Assembly: GCF_018383585.1 (NCBI RefSeq)
Contig: NZ_JAHAMK010000010.1
Coordinates: forward strand, 39,401-103,400
DNA: 64,000 bases
Reading direction: 5' to 3'
Source: Microvirga sp. 3-52
GTDB taxonomy: Bacteria; Pseudomonadota; Alphaproteobacteria; Rhizobiales; Beijerinckiaceae
The notes below the pieces were generated by a model. That model ran no database searches. It had not been told where the DNA came from and was given only the letters and a program-made list of their open reading frames with translations. Below, piece after piece: positions 18,473 through 21,823 of this stretch (the first letter of the stretch is position 1; each line of letters starts with the position of its first letter). Both the position numbers and the translations under genes were made by a program.

Positions 18473-18572
18473 GGTGGGAGGCTGGACGAAGACCCGTTCG
18501 GTCTCGTTAGGGCTGCTTCCTTCCGGACCTGACCCGGTTGGCGAGTGAGACGTCCCTCGCCAACCTCCCACC
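18473..18572 (-). ncRNA. ffs: Signal recognition particle RNA (4.5S, small bacterial type)
   Basis: On the minus strand the segment contains the conserved domain IV core GGTCAGGTCCGGAAGGAAGC followed by AGCC. This is the GGAA tetraloop with the asymmetric loop that binds Ffh. The ends, GGTGGGAGG and CCTCCCACC, are perfectly complementary and close a ~100-nt hairpin. Internal arms (GGTTGGCGAG with CTCGCCAACC on the 5' side) give further pairing. It lies 27 bases upstream of dnaX on the same strand and has its own promoter at 18576-18604. Confidence 0.96.
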
Positions 18573-19357: not shown

Positions 19358-20260
19358 ATGACCCGACCCATCGCCTACATCACGAACCCGCTCGTCCGCC
19401 ACAGCACCGAGCGGGACCCGGAGGCGCTCGCCAAGGCGGCGAGCGACCCGCATGCCGCCATGGTGATCCTGGCCGGCGACCTGCCGGTCCTTCGCGCCGG
19501 GGAGCCGGGAACGAGCCTCCTGACGACCTCGGTCTTGAGCCGCCTCCCGGCCCATCAGGAGCTGGTCTTTCTCGGCACCCTGCAGGATCGCCCCGTTGTA
19601 GCGACCCTGGCGGCACCCGAGGCCGCGGAGCTGTTTCAGGACGATCCGGCCTTCGCAGTCGTGGATTTGCGCTCCATTGCGGTGCGAGGGCTCGTTCCTG
19701 CGGAAGAACTCGGCCTGCTCGCCATGGCGAAATCCCTGCTCGACTGGCACCGGCGGCACCGCTTCTGCGCCAATTGCGGCGCGCCGACGCAACCCGCCCA
19801 GGCCGGCTTCCGGCGCGACTGCGCGGCGTGCAACGCCCAGCACTTCCCCCGCACCGATCCGGTGGTGATCATGTTGATCACGCGGGGCGACAAGTGCCTC
19901 ATGGGCCGCCAGCCGCGCTTCGCGGAGAAGATGTATTCCTGCCTCGCGGGCTTCCTCGAACCCGGCGAGACCATCGAGGACGCCGTCCGGCGGGAGACCT
20001 TCGAGGAGGCCGGCATCCGGGTGGGCGCGGTGCGCTACATGACCTCCCAGCCCTGGCCGTTTCCGTCCAACGTCATGATCGGCTGCATCGGCGAGGCACT
20101 GACCGACGAGATCACGTTCGACGGGGAGGAACTGGAGGATGCCCGCTGGTTCACGAAGGATGACGTGCGGCGCATGCTGGAGGGCACCCACGAGAACTAC
20201 CTGGCGCCTTCGCCCATCGCGATCGCGAACCACCTCGTCCGGGAATGGGTGAAGGAATGA
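19358..20260 (+). CDS. nudC: NAD(+)/NADH pyrophosphatase (RNA decapping type) NudC
   Basis: Nudix enzyme that splits NAD(H) into NMN and AMP and, in E. coli, removes NAD caps from RNA. The 300-residue product has the NudC layout: an N-terminal domain, a zinc ribbon (CANCGAPTQ...CAACN, about residues 137-160), then the Nudix box GFLEPGETIEDAVRRETFEE followed by AGI, and the NudC-specific SQPWPFPSNVMIG, the family SQPWPFPxS motif with Asn at the last position. It is 4 bases downstream of the HIT gene. Confidence 0.95.
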   Translation: MTRPIAYITNPLVRHSTERDPEALAKAASDPHAAMVILAGDLPVLRAGEPGTSLLTTSVLSRLPAHQELVFLGTLQDRPVVATLAAPEAAELFQDDPAFAVVDLRSIAVRGLVPAEELGLLAMAKSLLDWHRRHRFCANCGAPTQPAQAGFRRDCAACNAQHFPRTDPVVIMLITRGDKCLMGRQPRFAEKMYSCLAGFLEPGETIEDAVRRETFEEAGIRVGAVRYMTSQPWPFPSNVMIGCIGEALTDEITFDGEELEDARWFTKDDVRRMLEGTHENYLAPSPIAIANHLVREWVKE

Positions 20261-20452: not shown

Positions 20453-20532
20453 GGTGCCGGGCCGGTTTTCACGATCCCGATCGGCTTGCGCCGTCCGGCT
20501 CTCGTACCCTCAGCCCTGGCACTCCCCTCCAA

Positions 20533-20622
20533 CGTCATCACCGGGCTTGTCCCGGTGATCCCGATGCCTGAAGCGCGGCGCTCGTCCGACTGGGATAGCC
20601 GGGTTCAGGCCCGGCCATGACG
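20533..20622. repeat. Palindromic intergenic repeat, family A, copy A4
   Basis: CGTCATCACCGGGCTTGTCC...GGTGATCCCGATGCCTGAAG...CCCGGCCATGACG. The right half is slightly degenerate (GGGATAGCCGGGTTCAGGCC). Same orientation as A1, A3, A5 and A7. Confidence 0.85.
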
Positions 20623-20678
20623 TGGTGGGTGTGATGTCGGGCGCGGGATTGATGTGTTTCACAGAGCCAGCACCCGTA

Positions 20679-20931
20679 GGCCCAGGGCTTGGGAGCCCTG
20701 AGCCGTGAGGTTGATCGAGGGTGGCGCGATGGGCAGCCCGGCTCGATGTGGATGTGTGAGATGGAAGAGCCGGACGGCACCTCGCGCACGGTTCTTTTCA
20801 GGCGGACCAGCTGGGACGAGACCCAAGGTCGGCCTCCTGCGCTCCCAGGCTTGCGAGGCCTGCCGCAGGACCGTGCCGGTTCCCTTCGCTGCGAACGCCT
20901 CGAGCGCGCCCCTCGTCAGGAACCGATCTAA
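20679..20931 (-). ncRNA. Candidate structured non-coding RNA of unknown family
   Basis: The segment lies directly downstream of a consensus promoter (20938-20966). On the minus strand there is no ATG and no start with a ribosome-binding site. The longest frame begins upstream inside the promoter. Pairing is extensive. A closing stem joins 20905-20924 (GGTT...GAGGGGCGCG) to 20709-20728 (CGCGCC-AC-CCTC...AACC). Inside it lie a hairpin CTGCG-CAGGC/GCCTG-CGCAG and a hairpin GACC-TTGGG/CCCAG-GGTC. A strong 3' hairpin spans 20679-20704 (GGCTCAGGGCT/AGCCCTGGGCC). I could not match it to tmRNA, RNase P RNA or 6S RNA, though the closed-stem layout is loosely 6S-like. The structure was found by eye. 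Confidence 0.5.
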
Positions 20932-20937
20932 GGCAAC

Positions 20938-20981
20938 TCTATAGCTCAAGTGCAACACAGTGTCAAGAACAAAGTGAGAAC
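20938..20981 (-). promoter_or_regulatory. Consensus promoter with adjacent GTTC-N7-GTTC (LexA-like) box
   Basis: On the minus strand, TTGACA (20961-20966) and TATAGA (20938-20943) are exactly 17 bases apart. This is the best sigma70-type match I found in the window. Immediately upstream, GTTC (20978-20981) and GTTC (20967-20970) are separated by 7 bases, the direct-repeat pattern known for LexA in Alphaproteobacteria. The second GTTC abuts the -35 hexamer, a position where a repressor would block polymerase. The region is locally AT-rich (about 45% GC). LexA control is inference from the pattern alone. Confidence 0.6.
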
Positions 20982-21027
20982 ATTGTTCACAGGCCTGACC
21001 ACTCCCTCGACGTCATCACCTCCTCCA

Positions 21028-21118
21028 CGTCATCACCGGCCTTGTGCCGGGGATCCCGATGCCTGAAGCGCCGCGCCTCTCAGCATCGGGATGGCCGGGT
21101 CAAGCCCGGCCATGACGG
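21028..21118. repeat. Palindromic intergenic repeat, family A, copy A5
   Basis: CGTCATCACCGGCCTTGTGC...GGGGATCCCGATGCC, spacer, ATCGGGATGGCCGGGTCAAG...CCCGGCCATGACGG. A truncated 10-base start of another copy (CGTCATCACC) precedes it at 21011-21020, suggesting an imperfect tandem insertion or slippage. Confidence 0.88.
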
Positions 21119-21173
21119 CAGAGGGTGTGACGAAGGCCGGTGTAGGACGAAAGCGGGTGCGACCCAGGACAGT

Positions 21174-21295: not shown

Positions 21296-21823
21296 CTAAA
21301 GGGTCAGCTCGAAACGGTAGGCGACCTCGACAACCATCTGGCCGCGCAGGTCGAAGGATTGCTCGGCTCCCGGTGTCCCGCCAAGGGCCTCGTAGAAGCG
21401 ACGGGCCGGGAGGTTCTGCTTCAACACCCAGAGGCCTACAGAGCGGAAGCCGTGGGCGGCGAGGTGATCGAGAACACCGCCCATCAGCCTGCGGCCGACG
21501 CCCTGGCGCTTGACCTTGTCGAGCAGGTAGATCGCGAAGATCTCGGCCTCGGTGCCGAGAACATCGGCGTTCTCGCGGCCGATCGGCCCGCCGCGCGCGA
21601 AGCCGACGATCGCGCCCCCGTCCGTTTCAGCGACAAGTAGCCTGGCCCGCGGATTCGGCTGCCTGAAGGCGCCCTGCCACATCCGCGTCCGCTCCTCGAC
21701 GGACAGGCCAGCGAGCGCCTCGGGCGACAGGAAATCCTTGTAGGATTCGCGCCAACCCTGGACGTGGACTCCGGCGATGCCTTCGACGTCCGCCTCAACC
21801 GCCTCGCGGATGAGGATGCTCAC
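21296..21823 (-). CDS. GNAT family N-acetyltransferase
   Basis: Product of 175 residues, MSILIREAVEADVEGIAGVH at the start (RimI/PhnO-like). The acetyl-CoA loop is YLLDKVKRQGVGRRLMGGVL and the C-terminal strand pair includes GLWVLKQNLPARRFYEALGG. The GTG start at 21823 overlaps the TGA of the upstream prephenate dehydratase gene (GTGA), so the two are coupled; the long upstream extension of this frame is only the pheA gene out of frame. Acceptor unknown. Confidence 0.85.
   Translation of the reverse strand: MSILIREAVEADVEGIAGVHVQGWRESYKDFLSPEALAGLSVEERTRMWQGAFRQPNPRARLLVAETDGGAIVGFARGGPIGRENADVLGTEAEIFAIYLLDKVKRQGVGRRLMGGVLDHLAAHGFRSVGLWVLKQNLPARRFYEALGGTPGAEQSFDLRGQMVVEVAYRFELTL

Follow-up and report, generated by a model that had tools for sequence, protein, structure and literature searches.

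The DNA analysed here (hereafter, the window) is a stretch of 64,000 nucleotides from Microvirga sp. 3-52, and it carries at 20657–20983 of the minus strand one member of an RNA gene family that is represented by about 20 dispersed copies in the same genome. The element is likely to encode an SOS-induced, high-dosage structured RNA that probably works as a ribonucleoprotein (RNP) with a four-cysteine protein, with both expression and function being inferred. In the proposed mechanism, LexA would repress the gene for a structured non-coding RNA of about 270 nt, present in largely homogenised copies, and cleavage of LexA upon DNA damage would allow these copies to fire together, so that the RNA appears in a rapid burst at high dosage. 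A few master copies, which also carry a downstream gene for a protein of about 87 amino acids, would have this product made in the same response, and RNA and protein would most likely assemble into an RNP with a role in the SOS response. The copy in the window would serve as an RNA-only dosage copy.

The features of the window copy are summarized in Table 1. The gap that holds the element is flanked by convergent genes for what we take, from reading of the open reading frames (ORFs), to be a NudC-like hydrolase (19358–20260, plus strand) and a GNAT acetyltransferase (minus strand, stop at 21296). REP-like palindromic repeats (GTCATCACCGG..CCGGTGATCCC type) lie on both sides of the element, at 20470–20660 and 21014–21140, and similar repeats occupy the same gap in related species. 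The start of the transcript was inferred by distance from the -10 hexamer and its 3′ end was placed where conservation ends; no terminator-like site was found at the window copy. A promoter scan lists no site at the element, its rule requiring T at position 6 of the -10 hexamer, where the element has A.

Table 1. Coordinates of the features of the window copy
Feature	Position	Strand	Remarks
LexA-type operator GTTCTCACTTTGTTC	20967–20981	-	abuts the -35; GTTC-N7-GTTC exact in 67/67 full-length copies
-35 hexamer TTGACA	20961–20966	-	TTGACA in 50/67 copies, TTGACN in 64/67
17-nt promoter spacer	20944–20960	-	length 17 in 67/67 copies
-10 hexamer TATAGA	20938–20943	-	follows the 17-nt spacer
Inferred structured non-coding transcript	20657–20932	-	from alignment of 67 copies, covariation, slide controls and lack of a common reading frame
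P1 5′ arm	20918–20925	-	pairs with 20876–20883; two-sided changes in 5/8 pairs (helix 1)
Near-invariant core	20892–20915	-	in the P1 loop; family form GAGGGGCGCGCTCGCGAGGCGTCG; slightly altered in the window copy
P1 3′ arm	20876–20883	-	pairs with 20918–20925
3′ segment GCGCCACCCTCG	20716–20727	-	complementary to 20906–20915; possible pseudoknot
3′ hairpin P5	20679–20704	-	helices 9–10; two-sided changes in 5/10 pairs

An operator and promoter are present throughout the family. A profile search over fetched loci gave 111 matches, 70 of them full-length; 69 remained without duplicates, and 67 once sequences containing N were also set aside. These 67 copies, from 11 genomes, form the alignment used throughout, the rest being excluded from the box and pair counts. 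Mean column conservation is 0.92 for the box, 0.96 for the -35 and 0.89 for the -10, versus 0.65 for the spacer and 0.56 just upstream of the box. Operator and promoter thus appear to be under selection, the box and the spacing being exact while the spacer sequence drifts, as judged from sequence alone. Selecting near full-length copies might have enriched for intact 5′ ends, but presence of the first half-site was no condition of selection.

The box of the element resembles a LexA operator. The SOS box of Caulobacter is GTTCN7GTTC (PMC6237742), and in the genome studied here the sites in the recA promoter (GTACTCACTTTGTTC) and the lexA promoter (GTTCTCGCTTTGTTT) share 14 and 13 of 15 positions, respectively, with the element box, while none of 391 random 260-nt stretches of the window exceeded 11/15. 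Membership of an alphaproteobacterial LexA regulon would call for an operator at the promoter, which 67/67 copies have, and for repair genes with a like operator, recA and lexA among them, which this genome also has (closest sites with one difference at recA and two at lexA). A count of GTTCTNNNTTTGTTC in the genome gave 29 sites against 0.12 expected from window composition, and none for the reversed control. By reading of the sequences, 22 of the 29 sites were assigned to element copies, some of which may be assembly duplicates adjoining N. Of the seven remaining sites, four have a gene for a radical-SAM protein, SSB (the start of which is garbled by an N), RecD2 or DnaB no more than about 250 nt away, one is separated by about 500 nt from an AAA/SMC-type gene, and the surroundings of the other two are uninformative. 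If the element is indeed under LexA, most of the strongest LexA-type sites of this genome serve a single unknown RNA rather than repair proteins, and a major output of the DNA-damage response in a Microvirga genome has so far been overlooked.

The same count of boxes could conceivably mean that the copies matter as DNA, namely by buffering the SOS response as decoy sites for LexA. The concentration of 22 of the 29 strong boxes at the element is in keeping with this idea, which nevertheless leaves the conserved spacing of the -35 and -10 and the covariation of the RNA unexplained, and we consider it very unlikely.

The first-pass annotation of the window had described a TTGACA-N17-TATAGA promoter on the minus strand abutted by GTTC-N7-GTTC, which held on re-reading of the letters, and the presence of a LexA-type operator next to the promoter holds at the sequence level. 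It had also noted the absence of ATG for over 250 bases downstream (none occurs on the minus strand in 20932–20657, where ORFs of 40 or more residues begin with GTG) and a location between repeats. Its description of the small RNA as damage-inducible remains an inference without expression data behind it; control by LexA in vivo is likewise inferred. The roughly 20 dispersed copies, the genus-wide family and the small protein gene accompanying some copies were missing from that annotation.

The element is a structured non-coding RNA, a conclusion drawn from sequence and resting on compensatory changes and the lack of a conserved frame. The RNA of the window taken by itself folds only moderately better than shuffled sequences (z -2.41; 1 of 200 shuffles as good). 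Across the 67 aligned transcripts, 96.6% of cells pair, compared with 90.8% in shuffles and 37–46% when partners are slid by 1–3 columns. Two-sided compensatory changes were observed in 20 of the 55 predicted pairs (14.5 in shuffles), and the cells with such changes number 249, versus 96 in shuffles and 22–57 with slid partners. The slide control matters because relatedness can inflate the counts of compensatory changes. With pairs excluded in which G-U is the commonest type, G-U cells (166) outnumber A-C cells (31), which fits the strand of the promoter. An explanation by protein coding was rejected: no frame is open in common among the copies, and lengths vary.

The P1 helix occurs in many sequence versions. 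For 78 distinct pairs of P1 arms, 684 positions are paired, against a mean of 527 (sd 12, maximum 568) in 300 permutations; arms form a mean of 8.8 pairs with their own partners versus 6.6 with arms from other copies, and 16 of the 78 arm pairs formed seven pairs or fewer. The 3′ hairpin P5 is also well supported, both sides of one pair being changed in 17 of the 67 copies. The variable hairpin region contains an additional 80 nt or so in copy L145 (from genome G011) and in masters such as L299, L301 and L305, which lengthens the RNA to about 340 nt.

Complementarity between the core and the 3′ segment is seen by eye in other genera as well, and the RNA is possibly pseudoknotted through these two parts. 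The longer stem that would close the structure (20905–20924 with 20709–20728) represents genuine complementarity; it can hardly be tested by covariation because it is nearly invariant, and it would constitute a pseudoknot if formed because its 5′ arm lies within the P1 loop. One double change speaks for the pseudoknot: as judged by eye, CGGGGG/CCCCCG in G135, from another genus, takes the place of the CGAGGG/CCCTCG of others. Evidence against it comes from two other copies that were checked, where the 3′ segment has a second possible partner within P3 and a competing pairing exists.

On the structural side, the first-pass claims of a non-coding, highly structured transcript and of a strong 3′ hairpin both held at the sequence level, the former through covariation and the absence of a common frame. 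The closing stem held in part, as a possible pseudoknot with a competitor in two copies. That annotation had further proposed a search of Rfam, which gave no family at threshold for the element, and a test for compensatory changes in related loci, which were found; a conserved protein in one frame, which it named as a refutation, was not.

The family was delimited by several surveys. A DNA search of the genome itself returned many further copies, the longest with 75–80% identity and partial ones with up to 92%. Several draft contigs of this genome (C52, C65, C82, C85 and C87) end in or beside element copies, for which reason the copy counts are probably too low; the counts are in any case lower bounds, with at most 17, 41 or 8 candidates scored per genome depending on the survey. 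The named contigs with element copies belong to Microvirga. RNA model R1 (the survey with a limit of 41) found matches in 40 of 48 Microvirga genomes, with 1 to 34 scored matches each, and none in the other eight, which would provide a natural contrast. The core form GAGGGGCGCGCTCGCGAGGCGTCG, allowing up to two mismatches, occurs in 37 of the 45 genomes sampled from Microvirga, in 2/2 genomes of genus g52 and in 4/9 of genus g57, and its reversed control gave no matches. Single two-mismatch core matches in genera g25 and g27 are probably due to chance, and the window copy had no match in 16 genomes of other families.

The RNA promoters of g52 and g57 (loci L195–L200 and L212–L223) lack a GTTC box, which suggests that the RNA is distributed more widely than its SOS control, apparently a trait of Microvirga. 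The spacers of these promoters carry other recurring sequence, of TAGGAATATA or GTCCTAG types, a hint that a different regulator is possibly at work there. An origin from phage or plasmid was rejected, since phage and plasmid records contain no match to the window copy, and IMG/VR none to the exact core pattern. No report of such an RNA in Microvirga was encountered in the open-access literature searched (PubMed Central), and as far as that literature and Rfam go, the family has not been described previously.

In a tree of the copies, most fall with others from the same genome rather than with those at the same site, frequently as two clusters for one genome, and some sit at one common site in several species. 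The window copy has a long branch of its own outside the main cluster of its genome, and L008 and L051 also lie outside that cluster. The nudC-GNAT site carries the element in six genomes (G000, G006, G008, G011, G013 and G014); in G003 and G002, where the element is found at other sites, the corresponding gap measures no more than about 20 bp, and in G009 it contains other repeats without the element. Gene conversion is the simplest reading of the grouping by genome, the alternative being repeated insertion at the same sites. If the favoured reading holds, the family would be a case of apparent rRNA-like homogenisation among dispersed bacterial RNA genes. Master RNAs branch apart from the solo RNAs of their own genomes in several clades, not in all.

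It is possible, though not likely, that the family represents a pair of mobile elements, in which an autonomous master of RNA and protein spreads RNA-only satellites in trans, with mobilisation timed by the SOS response. The presence of few masters and many solos, with 1 to 34 scored RNA matches per genome, and the nudC-GNAT gap, filled in six genomes and nearly empty in two, would agree with this. Against it, no transposase or reverse transcriptase was seen as a conserved neighbour of the master loci, and no inverted repeat joins the element ends in the three copies tested for a DNA transposon or MITE. Since operator and -35 are part of the unit, its spread did not proceed by copying of the transcript. 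As to a target-site duplication, the flanks are too crowded with other repeats for one to be read. Finally, the mobile reading is not supported by the phage, plasmid and IMG/VR searches, and the operator is intact in all 67 aligned copies (partial copies fall outside that set), unlike that of decaying satellites.

The reading that we prefer, an SOS-induced RNP, draws on a small protein gene whose profile originated from divergent genomes in which the best RNA copy is followed by a short ORF. The protein has about 87 residues with four invariant cysteines and a GGxGPPC motif, and is zinc-finger-like. In a profile search (E 1e-8) its gene was found in 34 of the 48 Microvirga genomes, with 1–3 matches each; all are RNA-positive, and none of the eight RNA-negative genomes has it (Fisher p 8e-6, the genomes not being independent). 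Six of the 40 RNA-positive genomes gave no protein match at this threshold, one of which (G058) has a weak partial match in a separate search of 397 genomes of the family. In the latter search the protein was confined to Microvirga and two g52 genomes, both being RNA-bearing genera, and was not found in any g57 genome; in one of the g52 genomes (G098) the protein gene follows an RNA copy.

The RNA is directly upstream of the protein gene on the same strand in 30/30 fetched protein loci (one per genome, from 30 of the 34 protein-bearing genomes, further protein genes being mostly not included), and these loci occupy at least three different gene neighbourhoods. The linkage of RNA and protein is established at the level of sequence alone; co-transcription is inferred. 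An exact GTTC box is present in 23 of the 30 master loci, and the other seven comprise two cut by a contig start, one with a single mismatch and four without a boxed promoter within 480 nt. In the set of loci fetched before that survey, the protein was found in only 20, so that most of the fetched copies, including that of the window, are not upstream of it, and the window copy is an RNA-only solo.

The arrangement in the master loci, where the RNA model match ends some 30–45 nt before the start codon, would also suit a role of the RNA as a cis-acting leader (attenuator) for the mRNA of the small protein, with the solos as by-products. We find this unlikely, since most fetched copies do not precede a protein gene and yet retain promoter and structure.

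A toxin–antitoxin-like module, in which the RNA serves to neutralise or regulate the small protein and the solos are trans-acting RNAs, is improbable too. In its favour are the position of the RNA, immediately ahead of a small protein gene, and the many orphan RNA copies. By way of background, in type III systems (ToxIN) the RNA gene immediately precedes that of the protein, and the antitoxins are short tandem repeats. The element shares this order and differs in being one large non-repetitive fold; the type III criterion of a ToxN-like endoribonuclease downstream of tandem RNA repeats is not met, and many RNA copies are opposed to one to three protein genes. Moreover, the protein has no Pfam, NCBIfam or PADLOC family match at E 0.01 (PADLOC 0/16 members). 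The best Pfam result (YiiM_3-alpha, E 0.064) and a PHROGs result (E 0.075), each for 1/16 members, are not significant, and a sequence search of the PDB gave only E 0.86. The AlphaFold model of the protein is poor (mean pLDDT 64, pTM 0.34), leaving RNA binding without structural support; formation of the favoured RNP, and its purpose, are inferred.

A bolder reading, for and against which the case seems to us evenly balanced, is that of a new kind of SOS-triggered RNP system, its RNA supplied by 20–30 dispersed, concertedly evolving genes. Its partner would be an undescribed four-cysteine protein from one to three genes, typically RNA-linked masters, and the solos would be either dosage genes, as with rRNA, or satellites amplified by the master unit. 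If correct, this offers a testable RNA–protein pair.

Several known RNAs bear comparison with the element. In E. coli, IstR-2/TisB is a LexA-controlled RNA system with IstR as a single-copy antisense RNA. SymR/SymE and IstR-2/TisB have in common with the element an SOS-linked RNA beside a small protein gene; SymR and IstR are antisense RNAs, whereas the element is a multicopy covarying fold of about 270 nt that precedes the protein gene on the same strand. The mitomycin-induced sRNAs of Caulobacter (ChvR and others) are likewise alphaproteobacterial, with DNA-damage induction known for them and inferred for the element; that study found no GTTCN7GTTC box near its nine induced sRNAs (PMC6237742), in contrast to the box exact in 67/67 element copies. 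SmelA075 and SmelA099 are multicopy sRNA families of Rhizobiales built as chains of repeated short hairpins (PMC3927594), resembling the element in having several copies per genome; unlike for the element, no LexA box is mentioned in the relevant sections of that paper. OLE, GOLLD, ROOL and HEARO are large conserved RNA folds of unclear function, OLE having protein partners; the element differs from them in its lack of an Rfam match at threshold, its LexA box and its roughly 20 copies per genome. A known Rfam homologue was rejected, as the element region and 15 divergent loci gave only sub-threshold matches, at chance level for the element region. Within the window, the only Rfam 15 match above the gathering threshold was the bacterial small SRP RNA (RF00169, 56.8 bits; 18473–18569, minus strand), which lies upstream of what we take, from its ORF, to be a dnaX-like gene.
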